The position numbers and the translations under genes are program-made. A stretch of DNA of 50,199 nt from an uncultured Pseudomonadota bacterium. Its GTDB lineage: Bacteria; Myxococcota_A; UBA796; SXON01. The notes below the pieces were generated by a model, which was given only the letters and a program-made list of their open reading frames with translations, was not told the origin of the DNA and searched no databases. Below, one piece after another: positions 22,611-38,783 of the stretch. Within the stretch, counting starts at the first letter, position 1. Every line of letters begins with the position of its first letter. The stretch lies in the NCBI GenBank assembly GCA_903921785.1, contig CAIXRH010000308.1:1-50199 (forward strand), written 5' to 3'.

Positions 22611-23573
22611 TTAGACCTTCTCCGCTTTCAACGCTGCGACCGTGCGCGAGAACGCCTCGCCGCCGCTCACCGGTGGCGCGTAGCCGAACGCCGCCACCGC
22701 CGGCGCGAGCGTGTACGTGTGGCTGGTCGCGAGCTGCTTCGCCACGAAGCGCGTCATCGGGGGTTCCCCGGATCGTCCAAACGTGCGCCAGACCCACTCC
22801 GCCATCGCCCCCGCCCCGTAGGCGAGGCCGGCCGGGACCCGACCGGTGATGGGGGAAATCCCGAGGGCGGTGAACACCTCGTTGAGCCACGGCCACAGGG
22901 CCACCGGCTCAGCGTCGTTGATGAAGAAGGCGCGTCCCGCCGGGAGGGAGGTGGCGTCCACGAGGGCGAGCGCGGCCTGGAGGTGAGCGACGGCGGCGTT
23001 CTCGACGAAGGTCAGGGAGACCTGGTTCTTCCCCTCCCCCACGATGCGCAGCCGGCCGGCGCGGGCGCGGGCGATGAGCCGGGGCAGGAGGTGCGGATCT
23101 CCCGGACCGTAGATGAGGTGGGGACGGAGCGCAGTCGTGACGAGGCCGGCACCGTTCGCGGCGAGCACGAGGCGCTCGGCGGCCGCCTTGGTTCGCGGAT
23201 AGTCGGCGAGGAAGCTGGCGGGATACGGGAGGTCGTTGCCGGCGCCGACGTGGTCGCCGCCGTCGAAGACCACGCTCGGGGAGCTGGTGAAGACCAGGCG
23301 GCGGACGCCGGCTTCCCGGCAGGCGGCGAGCACGTTCTCGGTGCCGGTGACGTTGGTGCGCTCGTAGTCCTCAGGTGCGCCCCACACGCCTGCCTTCGCC
23401 GCGACGTGGAACACGACGTCGTGCCCGGCCATCGCGCGGGAGAGCGAAGCCCGATCGCCGATGTCCACGCCGCTCTGGCGCGAGGCCGGCGTGGCCGAGT
23501 GCCCGGCCGCGCGGAGCTGCCGCACCAGCGCGGCGCCGAGGAACCCGTGGCCACCGGTGACGAACGCCCGCAT
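22611..23573 (-). CDS. oleD: OleD: NAD(P)-dependent 2-alkyl-3-oxoalkanoate reductase
   Basis: A 320-residue short-chain dehydrogenase/epimerase-type protein. The Rossmann motif 'FVTGGHGFLG' is at the N-terminus. The catalytic Tyr-Lys pair sits in 'YPRTKAAAE', with Ser in 'FTSSPSVVFDG'. In olefin biosynthesis OleD reduces the beta-keto acid made by OleA to a 2-alkyl-3-hydroxyalkanoate, the substrate of OleC. It is the last gene of oleA-B-C-D on this strand. The ATG at 23573 matches the family start; a GTG at 23585, which overlaps the oleC stop as GTGA, is an equally possible start adding four residues. Confidence 0.93.
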   Translation of the reverse strand: MRAFVTGGHGFLGAALVRQLRAAGHSATPASRQSGVDIGDRASLSRAMAGHDVVFHVAAKAGVWGAPEDYERTNVTGTENVLAACREAGVRRLVFTSSPSVVFDGGDHVGAGNDLPYPASFLADYPRTKAAAERLVLAANGAGLVTTALRPHLIYGPGDPHLLPRLIARARAGRLRIVGEGKNQVSLTFVENAAVAHLQAALALVDATSLPAGRAFFINDAEPVALWPWLNEVFTALGISPITGRVPAGLAYGAGAMAEWVWRTFGRSGEPPMTRFVAKQLATSHTYTLAPAVAAFGYAPPVSGGEAFSRTVAALKAEKV

Positions 23574-23581
23574 CGGGGCGC

Positions 23582-25117
23582 TCACTTCTGACCCGCGGCC
23601 CACTCGGCCAGCGTTCGCCGGTGGATCTTCGAGTTGTGGCGTTTGTCCACCGGGAAGGCGGGGTGGAAGAGCACCCGCTTCACCAGGCCCGACGCCATCA
23701 CCTGTGCCGCCTTCGCCGGGTCGGGCGCGCCCTCGATGACCAACCACGGCTCGCCGCGCACGCCGACCAGCGCCGTGCGGCCACACGTGGGGTTGAACCT
23801 GCCCTCGACGGCATCGGTGAACAGATCCCCCACGGCCTCGGCCTTGCGGCCCATCAGCCAGAGGTAGCCCTCGGCGTCGACGTAGCCGAGGTCGCCCATG
23901 CGGTGCCAGACCTCGTCTTCCCCGGCGGGGATCTTCGCCTTCTCGTTGGCGTCCATGTTGTCGACGTACAGCTGCGTGACCACCGGGCCCTTCACGCAAA
24001 GCTCGCCGACCTCGCCCTGGGGGAGCCACTCGGCCTCCTGCTCGTCGAGCACCGGCTCGTCCGAGCGACGCAGCACCCGCACCTCGACGCCCACGGCCGG
24101 CTTGCCCACGCAGGTCCCCTCCCCGTTCAGCGATCGGGCGGCGAACGCCTCGATCTCCCGGCCCCACACCGCCGCGACCGGGAGCGCTTCGGTGGCGCCG
24201 TAGGGCGTGCCCACGTCCCCGTTCGGGAGGAGCGAACGGAGCTGGGCGATGAGCGGCGGCGGCACGCTGGCGCCGGCGATCATCAGGCGCTCGACCGTGG
24301 GGAACGTCAGCCCCTGCTGCACGGCCCACGGCGCGAAGGTGCGCCAGATCACCGGCGAGCCGAAGACGTTCTGCGCGCCGTACTTCGTGATCGCCTCCGC
24401 GATCTTCTCCGGCTTGGTGGCGGCCATGTTCGCCGCGTCCAGATCCGGGATGACGCTGGTGATGCCGAGCGCGGCGTCGAACAGGGAGAACGGGGGGAAC
24501 GCCGCGACGTCCACCTGACCGGAGCGGTAGCCGTACGTCTCGCGGAGGGAGGTCACCTGGGCGGCGAAGTTGCCGTGGGTGTAGAGCACGCCCTTGGCGG
24601 GGCCGGTGCTCCCGGAGGTGAAGAGGATCGCGGCGTTGTCTTCGGGGTCCACCACCCGGGGGCGATCCACGCCGGGGCTGCCGATGAGCTCCGTCAACGT
24701 GCGGCCGTCGAACCCGGCGCGCTTCACGGTGTAGACGCGGCGGGAGAGCGCCGGCCACTTCCAGAACGTGAGGTAGCTGAGGTAGTGCGCCTCGGGGACG
24801 CCGATGAGCACCGTGGGCCGCGTCCGCTCGACGCACCCAAGGAAATTCCCGATGCCCATGCCCGGATCGATGAGCACGGGGATGACCCCGGCCTTGAAAC
24901 ACGCCCACATCACCAGGATGAGGTCGATGCCGGGGCGGACCATCACGACCGCGCGATCACCGGCGTTGATCCCATCCATCGCGAAGCCTTTGGCGATGGC
25001 GCCGGACTTCCAGTCGAGGTCGAAGAAGCTGATCGACTCGCCCGTGGCGGCCATGATCACCGCCGGCTCGTCCTTGCGAACCTTCGCGGCGGCCTGCAGG
25101 TAGGCGGCGACGTTCAC
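23582..25117 (-). CDS. oleC: OleC: olefin beta-lactone synthetase
   Basis: A 511-residue ANL-superfamily adenylate-forming enzyme. It activates the 2-alkyl-3-hydroxy acid with ATP and closes it to a beta-lactone. The phosphate-binding loop 'LFTSGSTGPAKG' and the 'YGATEAL' motif are present. 'WHRMGDLGYVDAEGYLWLMGR' (split by one residue from the family form) carries the ribose-binding Asp. The C-terminal domain ends with Lys in 'NSKIHRR'. The start is GTG at 25117, overlapping the TGA of oleB in a GTGA, so translation is coupled. Its neighbours oleA, oleB and oleD make the assignment secure against ordinary acyl-CoA synthetases. Confidence 0.94.
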   Translation of the reverse strand: MNVAAYLQAAAKVRKDEPAVIMAATGESISFFDLDWKSGAIAKGFAMDGINAGDRAVVMVRPGIDLILVMWACFKAGVIPVLIDPGMGIGNFLGCVERTRPTVLIGVPEAHYLSYLTFWKWPALSRRVYTVKRAGFDGRTLTELIGSPGVDRPRVVDPEDNAAILFTSGSTGPAKGVLYTHGNFAAQVTSLRETYGYRSGQVDVAAFPPFSLFDAALGITSVIPDLDAANMAATKPEKIAEAITKYGAQNVFGSPVIWRTFAPWAVQQGLTFPTVERLMIAGASVPPPLIAQLRSLLPNGDVGTPYGATEALPVAAVWGREIEAFAARSLNGEGTCVGKPAVGVEVRVLRRSDEPVLDEQEAEWLPQGEVGELCVKGPVVTQLYVDNMDANEKAKIPAGEDEVWHRMGDLGYVDAEGYLWLMGRKAEAVGDLFTDAVEGRFNPTCGRTALVGVRGEPWLVIEGAPDPAKAAQVMASGLVKRVLFHPAFPVDKRHNSKIHRRTLAEWAAGQK

Positions 25118-25971
25118 GCCGCCTGCTCCCGAATGTGCCGGAGGACCTCCTCGCGCGCATCTTCGATGACGTAGTGACCCGCATCCGCGATCGGGAAGCT
25201 CGCCGCGGCCGGGAACCGGCGTTGGAACTCCTCACGGAACCACGGGGTGAAGCACCAGTCCTTCTCCCCCCACACCAGCCGCATCGGCTTGCCGGCGAGC
25301 GCGGGCAGGCCGGCCTCGATGTCGGCCAGGGTCTGCCAGCTCGGGTGCGACGCATCCATCGGGATGTCGAGCACGAAGGTGTGGGTGGCGATCCGGCTCT
25401 TCCAATCGGCGTAGGGCGCAAGAAGGCCCGCCTTGGCGGCCGGCGAGAGCCCTTTCTCCGTGGCCATGAACACGGCCGCGCCGGCGAAGCCATTGAACCC
25501 CCGCACCGCCAGCTTCCCGAGGCCGGGGATGCGGCACGCGGCGATGCGCAGCGGGATGTGCGGCGCGCGGAAGGCCGCGGTGTTGGTGACCACGAAGTCC
25601 CGGAAACGGTCGGGGTGGCGGGTGGCCACACCGAAGCCGATGGCCCCGCCCCAGTCGTGCACCACCAGGGTGATGTCGCGAAGATCGAGGTGCAGCACCA
25701 GCGCTTCGAGGTTCCGGATGTGGCCTTCGAGGCGGTACGGCCAGTCCTGGGGCTTGTCGGACATCCCGCAGCCGAGGTGGTCGATGGCCACGGCGCGATG
25801 GTCGCCCCGCATCGCCTGGATCCCGTGGCGCCAGTAGAAGCTCCACGTCGGGTTGCCGTGCACGAAGAGCACCGGGCGACCCTGCCCCTCGTCGACGTAG
25901 TGCACCCGCCCCCCTTCCACCTGCAAGAAGTGGTCGGCGAAGGGGTACTCGGCCTTCCAGTCCGCGCTCAT
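25114..25971 (-). CDS. oleB: OleB: beta-lactone decarboxylase (alpha/beta hydrolase)
   Basis: A 285-residue protein of the haloalkane dehalogenase-like alpha/beta-hydrolase group. The oxyanion motif 'FVHGNPTWSFYWR' and the nucleophile Asp106 in 'VVHDWGGA' are clear. The catalytic His lies in 'ADAGHYVIED'. Asp rather than Ser as nucleophile is what distinguishes OleB. It decarboxylates the cis-beta-lactone made by OleC to the final cis-olefin. In some organisms oleB is fused to oleC; here the two are separate but overlap by 4 bp. It starts 7 bp after the oleA stop. Confidence 0.93.
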   Translation of the reverse strand: MSADWKAEYPFADHFLQVEGGRVHYVDEGQGRPVLFVHGNPTWSFYWRHGIQAMRGDHRAVAIDHLGCGMSDKPQDWPYRLEGHIRNLEALVLHLDLRDITLVVHDWGGAIGFGVATRHPDRFRDFVVTNTAAFRAPHIPLRIAACRIPGLGKLAVRGFNGFAGAAVFMATEKGLSPAAKAGLLAPYADWKSRIATHTFVLDIPMDASHPSWQTLADIEAGLPALAGKPMRLVWGEKDWCFTPWFREEFQRRFPAAASFPIADAGHYVIEDAREEVLRHIREQAA

Positions 25972-25978
25972 CGCACGC

Positions 25979-26998
25979 TCACCAGGTGAGGCTCATCATC
26001 GCCACGTTGAGCCCGCTCCCGATGCCCATCAGCGCGACGTGCTCGCCGGCGCGGATCCGCCCCGAGTCCACCGCCAGGGCGAGGGTGAGCGGGACCGCGG
26101 CGGGGCCGACGTTGCCGAAGTTCGGGTACGTGAGGTGGCAGCGGGCCGGCTCGATCTCCAGCGCCTGGCAGAGCGCGGCGAGGTGCGCCTTGCCGACCTG
26201 GTGGCAGACGTAGTGCTGGATGCCGGCGTGGTTCCAGTTGGGGAGCTGGTCCTGCGCTTCGCTCCAGGTGCGACGCGCGAGGCTCACCCCGGCCTTCAGG
26301 AGCCGAGTGCTGTCCGTGACCATGCGCTCGGAGGTGCCGAGGCAGAGGCGGTTGTTCGCCGTGTCGGCCATCGCGACGCTGCCATTGACCCGGTGGCCGT
26401 TCTTGGAGAGCTCGGCACGCGACAGCACCATCGCCACGGCGGCGCTGCCGAGGGTGAGGGTGGCGAAGTTGTCCCAGAAGTCCTGGGAGGTGCTCTGGGG
26501 TTGGTGCAGGCGTTTGATCGTGGTGTCCACGATCTCGCCGGCGCTCTCGCCATCGACGATCACCGCATAGTCGATGACGCCGGCCTCGATCATCTGCCCC
26601 GCGAGCTCGATGCCGTTGATGAACCCGAGGCAGGCGTTCGCCACATCGAGGTTGCGGCACGTGGCGGGCAGCGCGAGATCGCCATGGACCAGGGCCGCCA
26701 TCGACGGCTCCAGGTAGTCCTTGCACACCGAGGTGTTGACCAGGAGGCCGATCCGCGAAGGATCCACGCCGCTCTGGGCGATCGCCTTGCGGGCCGCCCG
26801 GGTGGCCACCTCGTGCACCCGCGTGCCCGGCTCCCAGAACCCGCGCTCGTTGATCCCCGTGAGGAGCTCGATCGGCTTCGGCGGGAGCCGCATCCGCACG
26901 AGCGCGCCGTTGAGCTGCTCTTCGAGCTGGCTCGACGACACCCGCCGAGGAGCAAGCTCGTAGGCCACGGATTCGATGGCGACGTGCTGAAAGCGCAT
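25979..26998 (-). CDS. oleA: OleA: acyl-CoA head-to-head condensing thiolase
   Basis: A 339-residue thiolase-fold enzyme that joins two fatty acyl-CoA chains into a beta-keto acid, the first step of long-chain olefin synthesis. The nucleophile is Cys123 in 'NACLGF'. Glu97 in 'DYLEPS' lies 26 residues earlier, the same spacing as Glu117/Cys143 in Xanthomonas OleA, and this Glu distinguishes OleA from FabH. His266 ('CHQVGKAH') and Asn296 ('FGNVGPAA') complete the triad. I take the ATG at 26998; an ATG 42 nt upstream adds non-conserved residues. It is the first gene of oleABCD. A GGGATAGCC element and an imperfect palindrome lie upstream. Confidence 0.94.
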   Translation of the reverse strand: MRFQHVAIESVAYELAPRRVSSSQLEEQLNGALVRMRLPPKPIELLTGINERGFWEPGTRVHEVATRAARKAIAQSGVDPSRIGLLVNTSVCKDYLEPSMAALVHGDLALPATCRNLDVANACLGFINGIELAGQMIEAGVIDYAVIVDGESAGEIVDTTIKRLHQPQSTSQDFWDNFATLTLGSAAVAMVLSRAELSKNGHRVNGSVAMADTANNRLCLGTSERMVTDSTRLLKAGVSLARRTWSEAQDQLPNWNHAGIQHYVCHQVGKAHLAALCQALEIEPARCHLTYPNFGNVGPAAVPLTLALAVDSGRIRAGEHVALMGIGSGLNVAMMSLTW

Positions 26999-27057
26999 GT
27001 GAGGGTCGGCGCGGCTATCCCGAGCCGCTCCCCTGCGCACCCCCGATCTACGGTCCC

Positions 27058-27075
27058 GGTGACGGAACCGTGACC
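27058..27075. promoter_or_regulatory. Imperfect palindrome upstream of oleA, candidate operator
   Basis: GGTGACGG-AA-CCGTGACC, with one mismatched pair of eight, centred about 68 bp upstream of the oleA start codon. The size and position fit a dimeric repressor or activator site. No regulator gene is adjacent. Confidence 0.3.
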
Positions 27076-27122
27076 TGATGCGGAGACATCGGGCTCACCG
27101 GGTCCGCCCTCGCTCACCGCTC

Positions 27123-27225
27123 GCCCGGCAAGACGCGGCGCCCCAAGTGGCGGGATTCACGTCGTCGAGAGTCTGTCGCGTTCAGCCTAAAAAACAGGGA
27201 GCGTCAGCGCAGGGTCCTGCCGCCG
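27123..27225. repeat. Dispersed repeat 'T', diverged copy
   Basis: It begins with CCGGCAAGACGCGGCGCCC and ends with GGGTCCTGCCG, the same terminal sequences as the copies at 35741-35837 and 36016-36112, with a different middle and a length of about 103 bp. The ends are imperfect inverted repeats of each other. Confidence 0.55.
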
Positions 27226-27406
27226 TCATCGACGGGCGGTCGCTGCGCTCCGCCCGCCGCTGACGACGTCACACGCCTGGCCCACTTTCGGGCCCGTCAA
27301 CGCACGCCGAATCGTCGGCGAAAAACGACCAGGATTCCGCTCGGCGCCGCGAAGCCCGCCTGGGCTGGCCCACTTCGGGCTTGCTGCACGGACTCGCGTA
27401 GGGGGC

Positions 27407-28636
27407 TCACCCCCGCCGACGACGCGCGACCAGCCCGAGCGCCGCGATCCCGAGCGCCATCCCGGCGCTCCCCGTACTGTCGCAGCCGCAGCCGCCACCG
27501 CCGGTCCCGTTGCCGGTGTCGTTGTTCGCCGCGCTGTCGCCGGAGCCGCTGTCCGTGCCGCTGGTGTCCGTCCCGCCGCCGGTGTCCGTGCCCGTGCCGG
27601 TGTCGACCGTGCCGGTGTCCCCGGTGTCGACCGTGCCGGTGTCCCCGGTGTCGTCCGGGGTGTAGTCGGTGGCGTCGAGGTCGATGGGCACGTAGATCGC
27701 GTAGTTGGAGGCCTGGTAGGTGTAGTTCACCACCAGCTTGTCTCCCGCCTGGACCACCCAGGGGTGGAAGGCGCCGAGCGGCGGGGCGATGGAGGTGAGC
27801 TCCACCTGATCGATCACGTTCCAGTCAGGGTCGAAGGCGGTGAGCCAGACGTTGCCGGTCTGGGTGTCGAAGGACTCGCTGTCCTTGTGGCCCATGTGCG
27901 CCACGACCCACACGTCATTGACCTTGATGAGGCGCTGGTACCAGTAGGCGACGTAGCCGTCGGGGGCGACGTCGATCTTCTCGGGGTCGTCGCCGACGAG
28001 GCGGGTGCTCCAGTGGGCGAGCCACATGTAGTCGGGCTCTTCGTAGCGGGTGCCCACGGCGGTCAGACCGTTGTCGTCGCCCCAGAAGCTGGCGCCGCTC
28101 GCGTCGGGCCCCACGTCCAGCGACTTGACGCCCTTGACCTCTCCGGCCTCGTCCAGCGGGTAGTAGCGCATGACGCTGCGAGGGGGGCCAAGGACCATCC
28201 CGGCGAAGCCCCACGTCCAGTTGGTGCAGACGACGGCCGGATCGAGGAAGTTCACCTCGGGGTCGGACTCCACGGCGTTGGTCTCGACGATGACGTTGAA
28301 GTCGGCATCGAGCTTCTGGAGGTACACCGAGTCGTCGCTGAGCGTCTGCGACGAGGTGGCGGCGTGGATGAAGGTGCCATCGGGGCAGTCGGTGATGCCG
28401 TGGTCGAGCTCGTCGCCGTGCGCGCTGATCGCGCGGTCGGTGCCGGCGACCCGCTTGAACGTGCTGTCCGTCTCCTGGTAGTTGTAGTTGCCGCCCGACG
28501 CGGTGAGCAGCGAGAAGTGATCGCCGCCCGCGATCGGGAACATCCGCGGCCAGTTCCCGCCCGGATCGAGCTGCACGCTCGCCGAAGGGGTCTGGAAGAC
28601 GGGATCAGCGAGCGCGACAGAGAGGAGGAGCAGCAT
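27407..28636 (-). CDS. Secreted surface protein with MYXO-CTERM-type sorting signal
   Basis: A 409-residue protein with a short Sec signal (MLLLLSVALADPVF). The mature domain (about 15-310) is beta-rich, with repeated 'WxxAxD' and 'YYPLDE' type strands that look like a beta-propeller. Next is a Thr/Gly/Asp repeat linker (TGDTGTVDTGDTGTVDTG). The C-terminal signal is GGGGCGCDSTGSAG, then a hydrophobic stretch, then RRRR. That order (Cys-rich motif, membrane span, Arg cluster) defines MYXO-CTERM-type surface sorting. The true start is the ATG at 28636; the frame runs on upstream through the next gene's antisense. It follows the PfaC-type gene by 34 bp, so the two may be co-transcribed. Confidence 0.85.
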   Translation of the reverse strand: MLLLLSVALADPVFQTPSASVQLDPGGNWPRMFPIAGGDHFSLLTASGGNYNYQETDSTFKRVAGTDRAISAHGDELDHGITDCPDGTFIHAATSSQTLSDDSVYLQKLDADFNVIVETNAVESDPEVNFLDPAVVCTNWTWGFAGMVLGPPRSVMRYYPLDEAGEVKGVKSLDVGPDASGASFWGDDNGLTAVGTRYEEPDYMWLAHWSTRLVGDDPEKIDVAPDGYVAYWYQRLIKVNDVWVVAHMGHKDSESFDTQTGNVWLTAFDPDWNVIDQVELTSIAPPLGAFHPWVVQAGDKLVVNYTYQASNYAIYVPIDLDATDYTPDDTGDTGTVDTGDTGTVDTGTGTDTGGGTDTSGTDSGSGDSAANNDTGNGTGGGGCGCDSTGSAGMALGIAALGLVARRRRG

Positions 28637-28670
28637 GGGACGGGGACCCTCGGCCCCGAGGATAACCGAT

Positions 28671-31600
28671 CTACGACCCCAGTTGGCGGACACGCGCGGC
28701 CCACGTGGGGTCCGCGCCGACGAGGGCGCCCGCCGCTTCGAGGACGGCCACGATCGCGGCGCCCGGATTCGCCACCGCGGAGGGCACGCCCACCGGAGGC
28801 GGAACATCCCGACCGAGCGCGTCGATCGCCTCGGCCACCGCCTGCCGACGCTGCGCGTACGGCATCGCCCCGAGCACCTCCGGGAGGATCGGCCGGCCGA
28901 CGACGTGCACCTGCGGCGCCACCGGAAGGTCGGTTTTCGCGCCGTTGACGCCACCTCGGAAGGCGACGGGGACGACGGCCCAGCCCCGCTCCACCGCGAG
29001 GTCCGTCCACACCGAAGACACCTTGTCGATCCGGGCACCGACCTCGGTCTGCCGGGAACCTTCGACGTGCACGAGCAGGGAGACCTGCTTGGGGATCGCG
29101 TCGAGGACGGGACGGAGGGAGGCGGGACGATCCTGGTCGAACCAGGCGATCCGCGGTGGATCCCGGTGGTCGGGGTAGCTGGTCATCGCGGCGTGGAGGC
29201 GCCCGAGCCAGCGGGTCTGGTGCTCGACCTTGGCCAGGGCGCGGATCGGCCGGTTGAACGCCGCGGCGGCGACCGCGGTGAAGAACACGCTCTCGAGGTA
29301 ACTCTCGTGGTTGGCGAGGAAGAGCACCGGGCGGTCGAGCCGGGTGATCGCGTCGGCGTCCTCCACGCGGAAGTCCGCGAGGTACGCCTCGGCCAACGCC
29401 GCGAGTACGCCCTCCCCGGCCCACGGGCCCACGCCGAGCTGCTCCCGCCACCAGCCGGTGACGGCGGTGAGGTCGAGGTCGCGGAGGGCGCCACGAGCGA
29501 CAAGCCCTGGGCTCCCCTCCCCCCGCGCCAGCTCCACGGTGCGGAGCGGCTGCCGGGTGCACCACGCGCGTTCGGCGGAGGTGCGCACGTCGCGTGGGTG
29601 GCAACAGAGCGTTGCGGCCCCAATTTCACGCGCCGCGATCTCGCCCGGCGCGTCGGTGCCGAAGACGGCGCGCACGGTGCCGGGCAGCCAGTCCGAGGCG
29701 CGGACGTCCGTCGCGGAGACGGTGGCGGTGTCGCCCTCGAGGCGGCTCAGGGAGACCCCGGGGGTGACGGCGCCCTGGAGGAACGCGCGGCGCGCCTCGG
29801 GCGCGGCCTGCCCGATGGGGCCCTTCGGGAGGAGCACCTCCTCCAACTCCACATAGACCACGGCCGCGCCGTCTTCGCCGAAGGCCCAGAGGCCCACGAC
29901 CGGGCGGCCCTTCTCCACGCCGAGGGCGCGGGCTTCGACCCGGGGAGAACCCGCCGGCGGCCCGCCCGCGAGCACGAGGCGGCGGAGGCGCATCGGATAC
30001 GCAGCGTTGCCCGCAGGCACCGCGAACCAGGTCTCCATCGCGTCGTGAGGCACCAGGTGCGTCATCCCGTCGAGGAGCACGTCGGGGGCGAGGCCGGGGC
30101 GGAGGAGGGCGCTGGCGCCGTCCGTGCCGCGGGCGACGAACCGATCCACCGCCTGGAAGCTCGGCCCGTGGAAGAGCGCGCCGCTCGCATACAGCTCAGT
30201 GCCGGTCGTGGCCTCGGGCTGGGCGCCGGAGATCGGCGCGAGCGTGGGGAAGCTCCGGTCGCCGCCGATGCGGGCGGAGAAGTGGGGCTTGTCGAGGTCA
30301 CCCAGGACGACGCGCTCGCCGCGCTCGTCGACCACGCGGCGGATCGCCACGTCCCGAGGTTTGTCGTCGGGGAACGTGAGCCAGCGGCCGGCGACGCCGT
30401 CCTCCAGCGTGTCGGTGCCGGCGAAGGCGATCGCCTGCATCGCCATCGTCATCATCGCGGTGCTCGGGAGCGTCCACGTGGGGCGGTGGTCCACCGGCAC
30501 GGGGAAGCGGACGAGGTCCGGGCGTTCATCCTCGCGGACGCGCATCGCCACCCGGGGCATCGTGTAGATCTTCTTGCCGTCTACCCAGAGGTGGGCCTCG
30601 GCGATGGCCACGACGGCGCCCGCTTCGCGTTTCACCTCGGTGATCCGCACCTCGCTCTGGACGAGGCGGTTCTCCGGCACCACCTGCCCGCGGTACTTCC
30701 AGGTCATCGCCTCGGCGTTGGCCACGGGCTCGAAGCGCGGCTTGTGCAGGTCGGCGGCCAGGCCCTGGTCGACCATCGCCACCTGGAGCACCTGGAGGAG
30801 CGCCTCGATGCCGAGCGAGCCCGGCTGGACGGGGTCCTGGTAGAAGTGGGCCGCGAAGAACCACTGATCGGCGCTCACGTCCATCTCGCCGCCGTACCAG
30901 CCTCCTTCGCCGCGGAAGGCGCGGTCCAGCAGCGCGAGCTTGAAGCCGGCGCCCGCGGGACGCGACTCCTGGCGCGGAACGGCCACGGGGACGCCCGGCG
31001 CCACCAGCCGCGCCCGCTCCTCCGGCGTGCTCCCGACGCCCACCTGGTTCGCGAAGGCGGCCGGCGGGAAGAAGCCGAAGACCGTCTTCATGTCGAGGAT
31101 CGGCCCTTGGGCGTCCACCACGGCCACGGTGAACGTGACGAGCACCATCCCGCCGGAGCGCGAGACGCGGTCGAGCGTGGCGGTCGTGGTGATCATCCCG
31201 GTCTCCGGGGTGATCTCGCGGTGGACGGTGGTGGTGCCGTCGAGGTTGCGGAAGAGGAAGTCGTCGTCGGAGATGGCGCCGCCGGACCAGCTCGCGAGCC
31301 AGCCGCAGGGCTGGAGCGCGGCTTCGAGCAGCACGCAGTACGGCATCACCGGGTGGCCGTTCTCCTGGAAGTACCAGGCGTCCTTCGGGACGTCGTACTC
31401 CACGACCGCGCGGGCGCCGGCCTCCCCGCTGCCCATCTTCCCGGTGACCGTGCGCACCCGGGACATGAAGTGGTAGGGCGGGCCGGGGAGCCGCGCGACG
31501 CGGCGCGGGCTGTCATAGCGGGCGTACATCTCGCCGAACGCCGCAGTCGGGCGGCCCCAGGCGCACGCGAGCAGGCTCGGCCAGTCGTAGGCGGGCGCGG

Positions 31601-34600
31601 GCCCGGCCACCTCGCGCGTGGGGGTGAGCCACGGCTTGAAGTTCGGCCGGGAGAGCGGCCAATCGGGCACGAGCTCCACGCCCATCGGGTCCGCGTGGAA
31701 ACACTTCAGCCCGTCCACCGTGCAGAGCACCTGCGCCATGAGCCGCGGCACGGGGCCGGCGCTCACCTCGGTGACGAAGACCTCGTAGACGAGCTTCTTG
31801 CTCGTGGGCGTGACCTGCCCCCGACAACGCAGCTTGAACGGGACGTCCTTCACCGGCTCGAACCGCCAGCCGTCGTTGTTGAGCGTGTGGCCGCCCGCGC
31901 TGAGCAGGATGTACATGGCCTGGAGGCAGCCATCGAACATCAGCGTGCCCGGCATGCACGGGTCGTTGTGGAAATGACCGTGGAAGAACCACAGGTCCGG
32001 GCGGATGTCGAGCTCGGCGCGGAGGTAGCCGCGTTTCCACGGGCCGCCCTGGAGGTCGAAGCTCACGCGGTCGAGGAGGAGCATGCGCGTGGAGGGCACG
32101 CGCGGCGTCCAGGTGTGGGTGTCGGCGCGGGCGAAGGCGGGGCCGAAGACGCCGCAGAGATCGCCGTTTCCGAGCGCTTCGAGCTGCGCGCGGTCGAGCT
32201 CCGTGCGGGTGGGGACGGCCACGGGCGCGGCGACCGTGCCGGGGCCCGGGTCGTGCGTCTCCACATCCCAGATACATCCACCGGAATCGGCGAGCTCGGC
32301 GTCGGTGAAGAAGCCGGCCTGCCCCTCGCGCACGCTCAGGCGGTGGCGCTCGCCGGTGAAGCAGTCGTAGCGGAAGAAGAACATCCGGATGCCGCCGAGC
32401 TTCGCGTGCTGGTCGATGCGGATGTCGTACTGGAGCGTGTCCCCGGGGCCGGGCAGCTCGGCCTTGTAGGTGAGCGTGCAGCCGAGGAGCCGGTAGATGC
32501 GCTCGGACTGGTTCAATTCGTCGATGCCCTGCCAGCTCCCGAGGAGCAGGTCGGCCTGGCCGGACTCGATCATCAGCCCGCCCGGCATCCGCCCGTCGTG
32601 GAGGTACCAGGAGTCCTCGGTGATGTCGGTCTCGGTGACGATTCGGCCCTTTCCAAGAACCTTACTCGGCCCTTCGATGCCGAGCACGCGGTCGGCGAGG
32701 AGCAGCGGCGGCTCGGGCATGCGCACCACGCGGCGCCAGGCGTCGTGGGAGGCGAATTCCGGGCCGAAGATCGTGGTGATCGAGCCGTTCGCGCCCATCT
32801 CCAGCTCGGCGCGGCTCAGCCGCGGCCCGGGCATGTCGTCGCATGGGGTGCGCTGGAGCGGGACCGCGGTGGGGGCCGCGCTGCCCGGCGCGGGCTTCGG
32901 CGACGCAGGCAGCACCTTGCTGATCGCGGGGGCAGCGGGCGCGGCGGGCCGGGCCACGACCGGCGCGGCGGCCGGCGTCGACGCAGGGGGGGCCGGCGGC
33001 TTCGCAGGCACGGTCGTCGGCCAGGGTGCGGTCGGCGCTTCGGCCGGATCAGGGCGCCAACCACCCGCATCGCCCGTTCCACCCGTCTCACGCGCAACGC
33101 CCGTCAGCCCTTCGTTCCAGCCTCCTTCCGCCGGGACGGCGGCGGCCACGCGGAGCATCGTGTCGGTCATCGCGGCGTGCGCGGCCAGGAAGCTGGTGTG
33201 GAGGGCGGCCTGCTGCTCGAGGTACGCGCCGTGCGTGGCGCCGATGGCGCGGCGCCAGGCGGCGAAACCCGTCTCCCAACCTACATCGACCGGCGCGGGC
33301 GCGGCGGCCAGCCCATCGTCCCAGGCGACGGCGCTCGGGGGAGGAGCGGCGGCCGACGGGGGGGCAGGACGATCGTTGCGCATGCTGTCGGTCCCGGGGG
33401 CGGTGACGGTGGGGATGCGCCCAAACGAGGACGACACCGGCGCCAACTTCGGCGCCTTGGGCAGGACGGTGACCCCGGGCTTCTTCAAGACGACCTCCGA
33501 AGGATGCAGCTTCATCGTGAGGACCGGGCCGCGTACGGGCAGCTTCGGCCCCGCCACGTACCGACCGTTTCCGCGTACGCCCACCGCGCCGCGCTCGCCG
33601 CCGAGCCCGGACGCCTCCACCACGCTGTCGCCGCCCTTGCGGATCGCGTCCGCCACGGCGACCAGCGCGTCCGCCGCACCGTGCCGGGGCGGGCTCGGCT
33701 TCACGACCGGGCCCTCCACGTCGTCGTCGAGCCACGCGACGGGCTGCGCGCCCTGCTTCTCCACGGCGCTCGCCAGCGTGAGGACCAGCACCACGACGGC
33801 GTCCTCGGAGGGCTGCGTGCGGCCGAGGGCCTTGCGGGCGGCTTCGGCGCGCGGGTCCTTGGCGGTGTCCACCGCGCCGACCACGGCCACGTCGAGCTCG
33901 CCGCGGGCCAGGGCGTCCCAGGCGGCGTCGAGGGCGCGGAGGCCCGAGAGCTCCTCGGCGGAGATGGTGAAGCCGGGGCCGGCGGCGTCGAGCTGCACGC
34001 CGAGGCGGTTCGCGACGATGTTCGGCATCGTCCCGACCACGTGCTCGGCCTTGAGCGGGGGGGCGATCTCGTCGAGCGGGGCGGGCTGATCGCGGTGGAG
34101 CAGCCGCCAACGCAGGCCCCAGCGGGTGATCCGGCCGTCGCAGGCCATGCCGGCGTACACGCCGAGGCGGTCGCGGGACGGGGCGAGGCCGGCCTGGGCG
34201 AAGGCGTCGCGGCCAGCCTGGAGGAAGAGCGCCTGTTGCGCGAGCGAAGCGGAGAGATCGGCCGGGGGGAAGCGGAGGCCTTCGAGGGCGAGGCTCACCT
34301 CGTCGCCGCCGCGGCGGTCCAGCAGCGCGCGGATCGCCAGCCGCGGCCGACGCTGGAGCGGGCGGGCCGCCGGCGCCCCTTGACCCAGAGTCCAGCTCTC
34401 CACCAGCAAGTGCCCGTTGTTGCCGCCGAACCCGAACGCGCTCACCGCCGCGCGTCGCACGCCGTCCGCCGCGGGCGCCCAGGGCTGGGCGGCGTGCAGG
34501 AGCGAGAAGCCGCCGAGGTCCTGGAGGGGATCGTCCGCGTGCAGCGTGGGCGGCATCGTGGCCGCGCGCATGCCCACGAGCACCTTCAGGAGCCCGGCCG

Positions 34601-35648
34601 CGCCGGCCACGGTGATGAGGTGGCCCAGGTTGCTCTTGAGGGAGCCGACGTGGCCGCCGGGGTACACGCCGCGGAGGCTGTCGATCTCGGTGCGGTCGCC
34701 GGTGGGGGTGCCGGTGGCGTGGCACTCGAAGAGCTGCACGGCGTCGGGCGCCCAGCCGGCGTCGGCGAGCGCGAGGCGCATCGCGCGCTGCTGGCCCTCG
34801 GTGCTCGGGGCGAGGAGCGAGCGCCCGCGGCCGTCGTTGGACAGGCCGACGCCGCGGATCACGCCGAGGATCGGCTCGTTGGCGGCGATCGCGTCGTCGA
34901 GGCGGCGGAGCGTGAAGACCACGCAGCCCTCGGCGGGCACCAGCCCGTCCGCGCCCTTGTGGAACGGGCGGCTGAGGCCGCGCTTGGACATCGCGCCGAG
35001 TTGGCAGAAGCCCACGTGGAGGAAGAGGCTGTCGGCCCGCTGTACAGCGCCGGCCAGCATCCGATCGGCGCGGCCGGCCTCCAGGGCGTCGCAGGCGAGC
35101 TTCAGGGCGTAGAGCGAAGAAGCGCAGGCGGCGTCCAGGCAGAAGGCGCCGGCGTCGAGGCCGAGGGCACGCGCGACGATCGCGGCGGGCAAGCCCGACA
35201 TGAAGTGGTTGCGGGGGTCGCCGGGGTCGGTGCCGAGGGCGAGCCCTTCGCCCCACTGGGCCATGCCGTCGGTCGGGAAGGAGAGGTTGCCGAAGACGGC
35301 GCCGGTGCGTGCGGGGGCGAGGCCGCCGGGGCCCGCGCTCTCCGCCAGGGCACGGCGCGAGGTGTGCAGCAGCCAGTGGACCAGCGGATCGAGGCGTTCC
35401 ACCTCGGGGACATCGAGCCCGCCGAGGTCGGGCACGAAGCCCTCCACGTAGCCGCCGGCCAGCGACCACGCGCGGTCCCTCCCTTCCCCGCGCACCCGGG
35501 CGTTCGGCACCCCGAACCGACCTTCCGCCGGATCGCTCACGGCACAGACGCCGTCGAGCACGAGGCGGGTGAACGCGGCGACGTCGGGCGCGCCTGGCAG
35601 CACGCAGGACGCACCGGTGATCGCGATGGGGGTCCGGGGGGTGATCAT
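28671..35648 (-). CDS. PfaC-type PUFA/polyketide synthase subunit (KS-CLF-DH-DH-DH-acyltransferase)
   Basis: A 2325-residue protein. Residues 1-430 are a ketosynthase with Cys175 (DAACASS), His310 (CHATGT) and His343 (NLGHL). Residues 435-645 are a chain-length-factor-like KS without the Cys. A linker rich in Pro/Ala follows (650-935). About 935-1330 and 1360-1715 are two double-hotdog FabA-like dehydratases; the halves with HxHFHNDPCMPG (His1227) and HFYQDPVQPG (His1601) hold the active sites. About 1715-1945 is a PKS-like dehydratase ('FHGPSFQAVDRF', Asp1860/His1864). Residues 2085-2260 are a PlsC-like acyltransferase with NHESYLE (H2114, E2119 in place of the usual Asp) and 'VEGSRQ'. There is no malonyl-AT, ACP or KR. 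This matches PfaC/Pfa3 of marine bacteria and myxobacteria, but PfaA and PfaD partners are not in the window. Confidence 0.9.
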   Translation of the reverse strand: MITPRTPIAITGASCVLPGAPDVAAFTRLVLDGVCAVSDPAEGRFGVPNARVRGEGRDRAWSLAGGYVEGFVPDLGGLDVPEVERLDPLVHWLLHTSRRALAESAGPGGLAPARTGAVFGNLSFPTDGMAQWGEGLALGTDPGDPRNHFMSGLPAAIVARALGLDAGAFCLDAACASSLYALKLACDALEAGRADRMLAGAVQRADSLFLHVGFCQLGAMSKRGLSRPFHKGADGLVPAEGCVVFTLRRLDDAIAANEPILGVIRGVGLSNDGRGRSLLAPSTEGQQRAMRLALADAGWAPDAVQLFECHATGTPTGDRTEIDSLRGVYPGGHVGSLKSNLGHLITVAGAAGLLKVLVGMRAATMPPTLHADDPLQDLGGFSLLHAAQPWAPAADGVRRAAVSAFGFGGNNGHLLVESWTLGQGAPAARPLQRRPRLAIRALLDRRGGDEVSLALEGLRFPPADLSASLAQQALFLQAGRDAFAQAGLAPSRDRLGVYAGMACDGRITRWGLRWRLLHRDQPAPLDEIAPPLKAEHVVGTMPNIVANRLGVQLDAAGPGFTISAEELSGLRALDAAWDALARGELDVAVVGAVDTAKDPRAEAARKALGRTQPSEDAVVVLVLTLASAVEKQGAQPVAWLDDDVEGPVVKPSPPRHGAADALVAVADAIRKGGDSVVEASGLGGERGAVGVRGNGRYVAGPKLPVRGPVLTMKLHPSEVVLKKPGVTVLPKAPKLAPVSSSFGRIPTVTAPGTDSMRNDRPAPPSAAAPPPSAVAWDDGLAAAPAPVDVGWETGFAAWRRAIGATHGAYLEQQAALHTSFLAAHAAMTDTMLRVAAAVPAEGGWNEGLTGVARETGGTGDAGGWRPDPAEAPTAPWPTTVPAKPPAPPASTPAAAPVVARPAAPAAPAISKVLPASPKPAPGSAAPTAVPLQRTPCDDMPGPRLSRAELEMGANGSITTIFGPEFASHDAWRRVVRMPEPPLLLADRVLGIEGPSKVLGKGRIVTETDITEDSWYLHDGRMPGGLMIESGQADLLLGSWQGIDELNQSERIYRLLGCTLTYKAELPGPGDTLQYDIRIDQHAKLGGIRMFFFRYDCFTGERHRLSVREGQAGFFTDAELADSGGCIWDVETHDPGPGTVAAPVAVPTRTELDRAQLEALGNGDLCGVFGPAFARADTHTWTPRVPSTRMLLLDRVSFDLQGGPWKRGYLRAELDIRPDLWFFHGHFHNDPCMPGTLMFDGCLQAMYILLSAGGHTLNNDGWRFEPVKDVPFKLRCRGQVTPTSKKLVYEVFVTEVSAGPVPRLMAQVLCTVDGLKCFHADPMGVELVPDWPLSRPNFKPWLTPTREVAGPAPAYDWPSLLACAWGRPTAAFGEMYARYDSPRRVARLPGPPYHFMSRVRTVTGKMGSGEAGARAVVEYDVPKDAWYFQENGHPVMPYCVLLEAALQPCGWLASWSGGAISDDDFLFRNLDGTTTVHREITPETGMITTTATLDRVSRSGGMVLVTFTVAVVDAQGPILDMKTVFGFFPPAAFANQVGVGSTPEERARLVAPGVPVAVPRQESRPAGAGFKLALLDRAFRGEGGWYGGEMDVSADQWFFAAHFYQDPVQPGSLGIEALLQVLQVAMVDQGLAADLHKPRFEPVANAEAMTWKYRGQVVPENRLVQSEVRITEVKREAGAVVAIAEAHLWVDGKKIYTMPRVAMRVREDERPDLVRFPVPVDHRPTWTLPSTAMMTMAMQAIAFAGTDTLEDGVAGRWLTFPDDKPRDVAIRRVVDERGERVVLGDLDKPHFSARIGGDRSFPTLAPISGAQPEATTGTELYASGALFHGPSFQAVDRFVARGTDGASALLRPGLAPDVLLDGMTHLVPHDAMETWFAVPAGNAAYPMRLRRLVLAGGPPAGSPRVEARALGVEKGRPVVGLWAFGEDGAAVVYVELEEVLLPKGPIGQAAPEARRAFLQGAVTPGVSLSRLEGDTATVSATDVRASDWLPGTVRAVFGTDAPGEIAAREIGAATLCCHPRDVRTSAERAWCTRQPLRTVELARGEGSPGLVARGALRDLDLTAVTGWWREQLGVGPWAGEGVLAALAEAYLADFRVEDADAITRLDRPVLFLANHESYLESVFFTAVAAAAFNRPIRALAKVEHQTRWLGRLHAAMTSYPDHRDPPRIAWFDQDRPASLRPVLDAIPKQVSLLVHVEGSRQTEVGARIDKVSSVWTDLAVERGWAVVPVAFRGGVNGAKTDLPVAPQVHVVGRPILPEVLGAMPYAQRRQAVAEAIDALGRDVPPPVGVPSAVANPGAAIVAVLEAAGALVGADPTWAARVRQLGS

Positions 35649-35735
35649 GGGCGCACTCGCGGCCGCGCGGTTTAGCGCGGCGGTGTCACGGGGAGGTCAC
35701 CGGGCGCGTCCTCGAAGGTCCCCGTCCTGCGCCTA

Positions 35736-35842
35736 CGGGTCGCCGGCAAGACGCGGCGCCCGAGGGCGCGAGGGGCGATCCCCGGGGGTCGGGGCGGCGT
35801 CGGCGAAGAGCGAGGTCGGCGCTGGGTCCTGCCGGCGCGGAC
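35736..35842. repeat. 107-bp dispersed repeat 'T', copy A
   Basis: Identical to 36011-36117 except for one base (CGGCG versus CGACG). The inner 97 bp (35741-35837) is bounded by imperfect inverted repeats CGCCGGCAAGACGC and GGGTCCTGCCGGCG, with 12 of 14 positions pairing. Confidence 0.85.
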
Positions 35843-35935
35843 CGACCCGGCGCTCCCTCCGGTCGGCCGGGACGCCCCGCACCGTCACCCGCCCGGTCAC
35901 CGCTCACCGGCAACGTCGGCGCGGGAGAACCACCG

Positions 35936-36010
35936 GTGTTCGGCCTCGCTTTGGCTTGCTGCACGGCTCGCGGGGGTGCCGACGGGGGCAGCGGGGAACG
36001 ACGAGGGCAG
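35936..36010 (+). other. Possible displaced 5' end (lipoprotein signal) of the caspase-like gene
   Basis: A GTG at 35936, 8 nt after GGGAG, begins V-F-G-L-A-L-A-C-C, the minimal lipobox style of other lipoproteins here. Its frame is off by one from the caspase frame, but removing exactly the 107-bp repeat copy B (36011-36117) would join them in frame. Caution: part of this stretch resembles dispersed repeats near 27372, so the resemblance to a signal could be accidental. Confidence 0.35.
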
Positions 36011-36117
36011 CGGGTCGCCGGCAAGACGCGGCGCCCGAGGGCGCGAGGGGCGATCCCCGGGGGTCGGGGCGGCGTCGACGAAGAGCGAGGTCGGCGCTGG
36101 GTCCTGCCGGCGCGGAC
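36011..36117. repeat. 107-bp dispersed repeat 'T', copy B
   Basis: Second copy, with terminal inverted repeats at 36016-36029 and 36099-36112. It abuts the coding part of the caspase-like gene. Confidence 0.85.
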
Positions 36118-37341
36118 TCCGGCAACCAGTGCGAGAGCGACTCCCCCGCCCCCTGGACCGGCGCCCTCCCCCTCGGGCTCAGCTGGGGCCAGACCCGCGA
36201 GGAGGTGGTGGCCCTGCTCGGCCCGCCCTACGAGGACGACCTCCAGAAGAACTGCTGGCGAAGCCGGGACGACACGCTCCTCGTGGCCAAATTCGAGAAC
36301 GGTCACCTCTCCAGCCTCATCGAGAGTCGCGGCTCCCCGGACGACTGGACCCACGCATCCGCCAACGTCGATGTCGGCTACGTACGCCGCGCCATCGGCC
36401 CCGCGCCGTCGGTCGTCGCGCGCGCCACGAGCACGCCCCCGCCCGTCATCGTCACCCCGACGCCCACTCCCCCCGTGGTCACCCCACCGCCCGTCGCCCC
36501 CGCGCCGATCGTGGCGACCACGCCTGCGGCCCCGCTGGTGCTGCCGCCCATCGACGCGCCGATCCGCACCGGCGCGCGCGCCGCCAAGGAGGCGGCCGTG
36601 GTGATCGGGCTGGAGGCCTACCCCTTCCTCGGCGCCGGCGTGCCCTATGCCCATCGCGACGCACAGGCCTTCGCCGACCTGCTCCTCTACACCCGCGGTG
36701 TGCCGGGTCAGAACATCCAGACGCTGCAATCCGGGGCGCGGGAGCAGATCCTCTCCGCCGTGGAGCGCGCCGCCCGCGACGCCGGGCCGGGCGGACTGGT
36801 GTGGGTGTACTTCGCTGGACATGGGGCGGCGAACCCGTCCAATGGCGAGCGGGTGCTCCTGGGCGACGACGTCCGCGCCGACGTGCAGGCGTTCGAGTCA
36901 CGCGGCGTGGCCGTGTCCGAGATCGAGCGCACCGTCGCGGCCACCGGCGCCCGGGCGTTCCTGATGCTCGACACCTGCTACGCCGGCGCGAGCCGCTCCG
37001 GCGCGTCGATCCTCGGGGGTACTCGCCTCCTGGTTCCCGCGTACGCCGTGATCCGGACCGCCGGCACCGCGCAGTGGAACGCCGCCGGCCCCGACCAGAT
37101 CTCCGGTCCCCTGCCGGGCACGGACCATGGCGCGTTCACCTACTTCGGCGTCGGCGCGCTCCGGGGATGGGCAGACGGAGAGCTCGACGCCAAGCGCGAC
37201 GGGAAGATCACCGCCGGCGAAGCGCAGGCCTACGTCGCACGCGCGCTCCGTCGCACCGGCACCAACACGCAGCAGCCGGTGTACGTGGGCGCCGAGGACC
37301 TGGTGCTCTCGACGGGCTCCGAGATGGGTCCGCCGCTCTGA
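36118..37341 (+). CDS. Caspase-like (peptidase C14) protein, 5' end disrupted or uncertain
   Basis: The frame is open from before this point, but sequence with protein character begins here ('CESDSPAPWTG'), right after repeat copy B. About 407 residues. An N-terminal SmpA/OmlA-like module ('LSWGQTREEVVALLGPPYEDD') is followed by a long Pro/Thr/Val linker, then a caspase-fold domain. The catalytic dyad is His in 'VYFAGHGAAN' and Cys in 'MLDTCYAGASRSG'. An EF-hand-like loop 'DAKRDGKITAGEAQAYV' lies near the end and may bind Ca2+. No good start codon lies between the repeat and the domain, so the native N-terminus was probably lost or shifted by the repeat. Whether it is expressed is open. It is transcribed away from the PfaC-type gene. 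Confidence 0.75.
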   Translation, partial: SGNQCESDSPAPWTGALPLGLSWGQTREEVVALLGPPYEDDLQKNCWRSRDDTLLVAKFENGHLSSLIESRGSPDDWTHASANVDVGYVRRAIGPAPSVVARATSTPPPVIVTPTPTPPVVTPPPVAPAPIVATTPAAPLVLPPIDAPIRTGARAAKEAAVVIGLEAYPFLGAGVPYAHRDAQAFADLLLYTRGVPGQNIQTLQSGAREQILSAVERAARDAGPGGLVWVYFAGHGAANPSNGERVLLGDDVRADVQAFESRGVAVSEIERTVAATGARAFLMLDTCYAGASRSGASILGGTRLLVPAYAVIRTAGTAQWNAAGPDQISGPLPGTDHGAFTYFGVGALRGWADGELDAKRDGKITAGEAQAYVARALRRTGTNTQQPVYVGAEDLVLSTGSEMGPPL

Positions 37342-37376
37342 TCAAGGACGAAGAGGGAGCGGCCCGGGGGCGCGGC

Positions 37377-37406
37377 CCTGCCCCACGCCGACGTCGGCGG
37401 TCGAGG
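37377..37406 (+). repeat. 30-bp dispersed repeat 'V', copy 2
   Basis: CCTGCC, 10 variable bases, GTCGGCGGTCGAGG. It starts 35 nt after the caspase-like stop in the same direction, closely paralleling the copy 30 nt after arsS. Confidence 0.6.
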
Positions 37407-37506
37407 GGTGGCCGCGGCGAGAATGGCGGGGCGGGCAAGGGGGCCGCCGATACGTTTCGATCGGCGTCGCGATTCGGCGCACCCGTCATTTGCAGGATGC
37501 CATGCC

Positions 37507-37526
37507 AAACGCCAGGTCAGGCGTTT
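37507..37526. promoter_or_regulatory. Perfect inverted repeat upstream of the desaturase gene
   Basis: AAACGCC-AGGTCA-GGCGTTT is a 7-bp perfect inverted repeat with a 6-bp centre, ending 84 bp before the desaturase ATG. The region is less GC-rich than its surroundings. It could be an operator or a weak hairpin. Confidence 0.35.
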
Positions 37527-37596
37527 CCACTCACGACGAACGGTCCGCGTTCCGCCAGATCGACACCCGATCGTAGCGATGACCGGAGGCCCGCGA

Positions 37597-37602
37597 TAGC
37601 GC
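37597..37602 (+). promoter_or_regulatory. -10-like hexamer TAGCGC, leaderless arrangement
   Basis: GCGATAGCGC is followed by eight C-rich bases and the ATG at 37611. No Shine-Dalgarno sequence is present. Confidence 0.35.
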
Positions 37603-37610
37603 CCGCCCCC

Positions 37611-38783
37611 ATGGCCACCGCCGCTCCCGCGCTCGACTACGCCGCGTTCGCCTCGGAGCTCGATGCCCTGCGGCAGCGCCTGGAGGTCGAGCTGGCGCCT
37701 CAGGCCGCCGCCCACCTCCGCCGGCAGGCCCGTTGGGGGCGGCTGTGCACCGCCCTCGGCTACGCCACCGCCTGGATCGCGCCGAACCCGCTGTCCGCCG
37801 CGCTGATGGCCCTGGGCATGTCCGCGCGGTGGACCATCGTCGCGCACCACACCAGCCACCGCGCGCTCGACCGCGTGGGCGGGGACGTGGCCCCTCACGA
37901 GACCAGCAAGGGCTTCGCCAAGGGCCGCCGCCGCTGGGTGGACTGGCTCGACTGGCTCGACCCTGCCGCCTGGGACTTCGAGCACAACAAGCTCCATCAT
38001 TACCACACGGGCGAGGTCTCCGACCCCGACCTCGTGGAGGAGCAGCTCGGCTGGCTGCGCGACATGCGGGCGCCCCGATGGGCGAAGCGCCTCGGCATCT
38101 GGCTCTTCGCGGGCACGTGGAAGTTCACCTACTACGCCCCGAACATCTACGCGCTCCACCGCCGTGAACAGAAGCGCCGCACCGAAGGCCGACAGTTCGA
38201 CCCGTCGGTCTCCACCACGGACGTGAACCTCTGGCGCACGTGGAGCCCGTTCAGCGCCGACGGCGCCCCCTTCTGGCGAGACGTCGTGGCGCCCTACCTC
38301 GGCGTACGCCTGTTGCTCCTGCCGCTGCTCTTCGCGCCGCTGGGCGCCTGGGCCGCCTTCTCCGTGCTGGTCAACACCGTGCTCGCCGAGCTGCTCACCG
38401 GCTGGCACACCTTCGTCATCGTGGTGCCGAACCACGCCGGCGAGGACATGTGCCGCTACGATCGTGCGCCGACCGACCGGGCTGAGTTCTACGTACGGCA
38501 GGTGCTCGGCTCGGTGAACTTCCGCACCGGCGGGGAGATCAACGACTTCCTCCATGGCTACCTGAACTATCAGGTGGAGCACCACCTCTGGCCGGACGCC
38601 CCGCCGCTGCTCTACATCCACGCCGCGCCCGAGGTCAAGGCGATCTGCGCCCGCCACGGCGTGAGCTACGCCCAGGAGAGCGTTTTCCGGCGCGTGGGGA
38701 TGCTCCTCGACATCATGACCGGCAAGACCTCGATGATCCGCGGGACGACGCTGGCGAAGTCGGAGCGCGTCGTCCCGGCCTGA
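37611..38783 (+). CDS. Membrane fatty acid desaturase, front-end type
   Basis: A 390-residue desaturase with the three histidine boxes of the diiron site: HHTSH (79-83), HNKLHHYH (125-132) and QVEHH (321-325). A Gln at the start of the third box is typical of front-end desaturases that act between an existing double bond and the carboxyl group. There is no fused cytochrome b5 domain, so an external electron donor is needed. Hydrophobic stretches at about 55-80, 150-165 and 225-260 fit membrane insertion. Acting on polyunsaturated chains would link it to the PfaC-type protein and lipoxygenase (inference). Its own TAGCGC element and an upstream inverted repeat suggest separate regulation. Confidence 0.88.
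   Translation: MATAAPALDYAAFASELDALRQRLEVELAPQAAAHLRRQARWGRLCTALGYATAWIAPNPLSAALMALGMSARWTIVAHHTSHRALDRVGGDVAPHETSKGFAKGRRRWVDWLDWLDPAAWDFEHNKLHHYHTGEVSDPDLVEEQLGWLRDMRAPRWAKRLGIWLFAGTWKFTYYAPNIYALHRREQKRRTEGRQFDPSVSTTDVNLWRTWSPFSADGAPFWRDVVAPYLGVRLLLLPLLFAPLGAWAAFSVLVNTVLAELLTGWHTFVIVVPNHAGEDMCRYDRAPTDRAEFYVRQVLGSVNFRTGGEINDFLHGYLNYQVEHHLWPDAPPLLYIHAAPEVKAICARHGVSYAQESVFRRVGMLLDIMTGKTSMIRGTTLAKSERVVPA

Follow-up and report, generated by a model that had tools for sequence, protein, structure and literature searches.

Linkage of oleABCD to a myxobacterial-type pfaC gene suggests a route to polyunsaturated olefins in uncultured lake Myxococcota

Does the co-location of olefin-synthesis genes, a PfaC-type megasynthase gene and genes for a desaturase and a lipoxygenase mark a pathway to polyunsaturated hydrocarbons? 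The window that raises this question is the whole of contig C308 (50,199 nucleotides), part of a 7.48-Mb genome (362 contigs, 72% G+C) of an uncultured bacterium. The first-pass annotation of this DNA had proposed such a pathway, and its core stands: PfaA and PfaD accompany the ole genes and PfaC in the genome, and the neighbourhood is conserved. The desaturase, which it had placed in the cluster, and the lipoxygenase, which it had suggested could act on the same class of lipid, are set aside. We consider it likely that the Pfa synthase feeds OleABCD, yielding polyunsaturated long-chain olefins as in Shewanella and Geobacter.

The candidate unit lies on the minus strand (Table 1) in the order pfaC, a gene for a 410-aa secreted protein, oleA, oleB, oleC and oleD (ending at 22611), with oleABCD (22611-26998) downstream of the 2,325-aa PfaC/Pfa3-type gene. 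A promoter and terminator scan gave no signal above chance. All four ole genes are present in the order A-B-C-D, in agreement with the claim of a complete set with the OleA-specific Glu. The best solved relative of OleA is Xanthomonas OleA (E 1.2e-84); alignment to it finds the active-site Cys, Glu (LEPS), His and Asn intact, in the relatives as well, and ATG 26998 is a better start than 27040. OleB belongs to the alpha/beta hydrolases and resembles haloalkane dehalogenases, OleC is an AMP-binding protein whose top olefin-specific models are beta-lactone synthetases, and the top match of OleD is 2-alkyl-3-oxoalkanoate reductase. OleC and OleD score below the NCBIfam olefin equivalog cut-offs (432 vs 900 and 337 vs 580, respectively), which belong to strict models named after single lineages and are not a biological requirement. 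Two other genomes, G027 and G028, carry oleA, oleB and oleD side by side, with no oleC detected between them.

Table 1. Features of the pfaC-ole region and of the two outlying lipid genes (window coordinates).
Feature	Position	Strand	Basis or remark
Lipoxygenase	1095..3011	-	closest relative of known structure is a bacterial 15-lipoxygenase (E 4.8e-150); not assigned to the unit
OleD, 2-alkyl-3-oxoalkanoate reductase (SDR)	22611..23573	-	domain searches
OleC, AMP-binding beta-lactone synthetase	23582..25117	-	domain searches; 4-bp overlap with oleB
OleB, alpha/beta hydrolase (beta-lactone decarboxylase by family)	25114..25971	-	domain searches
OleA, head-to-head thiolase-type condensing enzyme	25979..26998	-	domain searches; active-site residues all kept
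Predicted secreted protein, 410 aa	27407..28636	-	Gly/Cys-rich, membrane span, Arg tail
PfaC/Pfa3-type synthase, KS-CLF-DH2-DH3-DH4(weak)-AGPAT, without AT insert	28671..35648	-	domain searches; syntenic with ole in relatives
AGPAT domain of PfaC, approximate extent	28674..29528	-	NHX4E and VEGSR motifs
Double FabA-like dehydratase/isomerase region of PfaC	30519..32858	-	domain search
Fatty acid desaturase, QVEHH third His box	37611..38783 (about)	+	PF00487; judged not part of the unit

The PfaC-type megasynthase reported near the ole genes was recovered by domain searches, on the same strand as oleABCD. It comprises a KS, a CLF in which the active Cys is absent and four FabA-like hot-dog units that form two DH pairs; a weak match to a PKS-type DH follows, and an AGPAT lies at the C terminus. 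The AGPAT call combines a weak Pfam score with motif alignment, in which NHX4E and VEGSR are the counterparts of NHQxxxES and VEGTR in other Pfa3 homologues. The combination of KS-CLF-DH2 with a C-terminal AGPAT is a trait of Type L myxobacterial PUFA synthases, and AGPAT has been reported only from the myxobacterial Type L cluster (PMC4882568). FabA-like domain arrays of this kind were found nowhere else in a search of the window's genome. The protein lacks a stretch of about 700 aa between CLF and DH, carried by about half of the compared homologues, which presumably corresponds to the AT domain described in published work. Two candidate signals in PfaC were rejected. Absence of the AT does not mark linkage to ole, as AT-less PfaC is common at unlinked loci; likewise, HX4E in place of HX4D is not a sign of a dead AGPAT, as nearly all compared Pfa3 homologues, Sorangium included, carry HX4E.

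The first-pass annotation had named the missing PfaA and PfaD as the main gap and had called for a genome search, which places both partners on other contigs, outside the window. PfaD has two homologues, one each on C53 and C136, whose scores exceed the curated cut-off by a wide margin. PfaA is in pieces, with KS-MAT on C195 (862 bits) and the ACPs and KR-DH on C236. Because C195 stops before any ACP and C236 starts with two ACPs identical in sequence, the break is consistent with a gap that repeats left in the assembly. The genome holds PfaA and PfaD besides PfaC, as expected of Type L, dispersed over different contigs; the contiguity of pfa1-2-3 that is also typical of Type L is found in a relative, G010. 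Across the 22 genomes of the family, PfaA and PfaD are universal (22/22 each), PfaC occurs in 20 and OleA in 21.

In G000 (the window's genome, on C236), G019 and G020, pfaA is split: a stop after VLHP(Q) closes the ACP frame, and KR-DH is read further on in a different frame; in G013 and G010 pfaA is one fused gene. A C-run/G-run hairpin (CCCYCCCGAYGAGGGGGGG) stands at the pfaA junction in G000, G013, G019 and G020; the C7/G7 hairpin was considered as a dispersed repeat and was not found within the window. The fission, the dispersal of pfaA and pfaD, the absence of pfaC and oleA from G020 and that of pfaC from G006 could be taken to mean that the Pfa synthase of this subclade is decaying or repurposed, that no polyene is made and that the adjacency is a relic. 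We consider this very improbable, since the PfaC, PfaA and PfaD frames are open with their motifs kept, genus-wide identity is 74-80% in the DH region and 76-82% in the PfaA KS-AT, and split domains are able to work in trans.

Conservation of the neighbourhood, the test that the first-pass annotation had set for itself, was borne out among relatives, and the arrangement is not unique to this genome. Seven congeners (G013, G014, G016, G017, G018, G019 and G021) have pfaC and oleA adjacent on the same strand with a gap of 65-300 bp, and in three genomes of two other genera (G007, G009 and G010) the ole genes follow pfaC after 2.5-4 kb, with a reversed gene adjoining oleA that we read as ferrochelatase. 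G010 carries pfaD, pfaA, pfaC and, further on, oleABCD on a single contig, all with the same orientation; in G013 pfaA ends 7 bp ahead of pfaC, followed by oleABCD. Linkage of pfaC to ole was absent from G001-G005, G008 and G011, and none was found within 4.6 kb in G015. Each OleA-bearing genome of the family has one OleA, and the window's copy is the one beside pfaC. G006 has OleA and no PfaC, and G020 lacks both, a joint absence that we count in favour of a joint function. The window's genome itself has no single pfa-ole operon, given the extra gene between pfaC and oleA, which encodes the 410-aa secreted protein, and the location of pfaA and pfaD on other contigs. The tail of this protein, with a Gly/Cys-rich stretch, a membrane span and an Arg cluster, is reminiscent of a MYXO-CTERM sorting signal. 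Where relatives of the PfaC gene are named, they come from metagenome-assembled genomes whose titles read Deltaproteobacteria, Proteobacteria or Myxococcales, and several of these titles point to lakes (Baikal-deep, Erken). One further such genome, titled Klebsiella pneumoniae (CAMAXZ010000055.1), contains a Myxococcota-type pfa locus, and its title is most likely a labelling error.

By contrast, the two outlying genes do not travel with the unit. Both are real. The desaturase (PF00487) has the His boxes HHTSH, HNKLHH and QVEHH and no cytochrome b5 HPGG motif, but it lies on the strand opposite to pfaC-ole; it occurs in 11 of the 22 family genomes, and the 10 homologues outside the window are all on contigs without pfaC or ole. 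The lipoxygenase is about 20 kb from oleD and occurs in only 4 of the 22 genomes, with the matches in the other three never on a pfaC or ole contig. In Sorangium cellulosum So ce26, a lipoxygenase-like gene (L134 20102-21505) lies about 6 kb downstream of pfa3.

Linkage extends well beyond the family. Of the 71 genomes of the class, 59 carry OleA and 52 a PfaC DH region that passes the threshold applied; OleA and a pfa gene are about 20 kb apart or less in 23 of the 59 (the window and its seven congeners, G007, G009, G010, G023, G025, G026, G061, G029, G030, G036, G041 and G066-G069). These belong to five of the seven OleA-bearing families and show at least three layouts. In family f1, pfaC is followed by oleABCD. 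In families f2 and f6 (G023, G025, G026 and G061), oleABCD precedes pfaD-pfaA(-pfaC), and in G023 oleABCD-pfaD-pfaA-pfaC spans about 18 kb with all genes in the same orientation. In family f9 (G066-G069), a second type of pfaC (about 37% identical), without detectable AGPAT, is followed by oleABCD with almost no gap; G068 and G069 have another, unlinked PfaC as well. In three fen Myxococcales, pfaC and oleBA converge. A random site in a 6-Mb genome would fall within 20 kb at a rate of <1% per pfa locus, a rough estimate in which relatives are not independent. On the OleA tree, linkage changes state 12 times, gains and losses pooled, and at least 10 of these changes are forced by well-supported branches.

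How the two gene sets might work together is suggested by characterised bacteria. Shewanella pfa mutants lose their hydrocarbon, and OleA expressed with a cloned pfa operon in E. coli without FadD gives a 31:8 ketone (PMC6463001). With the genes, their motifs, their genomic partners and the linkage in place, these results support our inference that OleA accepts the chain made by the Pfa synthase and that a polyene olefin results. PfaA (KS-MAT-ACPs, KR-DH), PfaC (KS-CLF-DH) and PfaD (enoyl reductase) would, judging from their families, build a methylene-interrupted polyene carried on the carrier domains of PfaA. The chain could leave by the AGPAT of PfaC, which would transfer it to lysophosphatidate and so into membrane lipid, or by OleA, which would join two chains head to head; OleD, OleC and OleB would then convert the OleA product to a long, highly unsaturated internal olefin, by analogy with Shewanella and Geobacter. 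The position of ole beside pfaC may favour co-expression and keep OleA near the synthase.

Alternatively, the neighbours could work apart: OleA would condense ordinary FAS-II chains, giving olefins that have few double bonds, and the Pfa synthase would use its own AGPAT to make PUFA phospholipids. This agrees with the retention of AGPAT in PfaC, whose HX4E motif is common to Pfa3 homologues, with the higher score of OleC against the Xanthomonas-type than the Shewanella-type model, and with several relatives that keep both gene sets unlinked. There is also a precedent in Photobacterium profundum SS9, in which the pfa and ole operons are physically linked, as here, but are separated by pfaT and yield no detectable hydrocarbon (PMC6463001), so that pfa-ole linkage is neither sufficient nor necessary for hydrocarbon formation. 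However, the linkage recurs in several different layouts in five families, and in Pfa producers OleA condenses exclusively the Pfa-derived chain despite the presence of FAS II (PMC6463001). We regard separate function as unlikely and favour the transfer of the Pfa chain to OleA.

Neither the pathway nor pfa-ole linkage is new in itself. A 2011 paper reported that ole genes co-occur with, and are linked to, secondary lipid synthases (PMC3098273), and the pathway and the linkage are known from work on Shewanella, Photobacterium and Geobacter bemidjiensis. In the last of these a tandem array runs pfaD, A, B, C, oleA, B, C, D and pfaE, and the organism produces C31:9 (PMC4882568). Its Type I secondary lipid synthase cluster resembles G010 and G013 in having ole directly after pfaC (PMC4882568; PMC3098273), but it has a separate pfaB and, going by the restriction of AGPAT to Type L (PMC4882568), would lack that domain, whereas the synthase described here resembles Type L and has its genes dispersed. 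Shewanella has the same enzyme set of pfa and oleABCD, with a Pfa-dependent product (PMC6463001), but its PfaC lacks AGPAT and it has a separate PfaB and a PfaT thioesterase. The domain order is shared with the myxobacterial Pfa1-Pfa2-Pfa3 (Type L) system, with a KS-CLF-DH-DH-AGPAT Pfa3; the AT is absent from the window's PfaC, as reported for So ce56. In the characterised Aetherobacter, Minicystis and Sorangium loci, pfa1-2-3 form one cluster, for which ole linkage is not described (PMC8436480; PMC6731297), whereas the window's pfaC sits with ole and pfaA lies elsewhere. A literature search on oleABCD in Myxococc- found no paper in the library searched. What is new is an ole set joined to a pfaC of the myxobacterial kind that bears AGPAT (‘Type L’), found in lake bacteria that are uncultured, together with the splitting and dispersal of pfaA in the window's subclade.

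More tentatively, and with rather less than even confidence, we suggest that pfa and ole were joined several times in this class of Myxococcota, with OleA serving to release the chain from the Pfa synthase. The ole-linked synthase would either share its chain between AGPAT and OleA, as in the window's family, or, without AGPAT, have OleA as its main exit, as in f9. Overall, Pfa-dependent hydrocarbon synthesis, demonstrated in marine Gammaproteobacteria and inferred in Geobacter, would thus extend to uncultured lake Myxococcota, and the natural layouts, with AGPAT beside ole, AGPAT absent beside ole, or PfaA split, may offer a way into how polyenes exit from the Pfa synthase.
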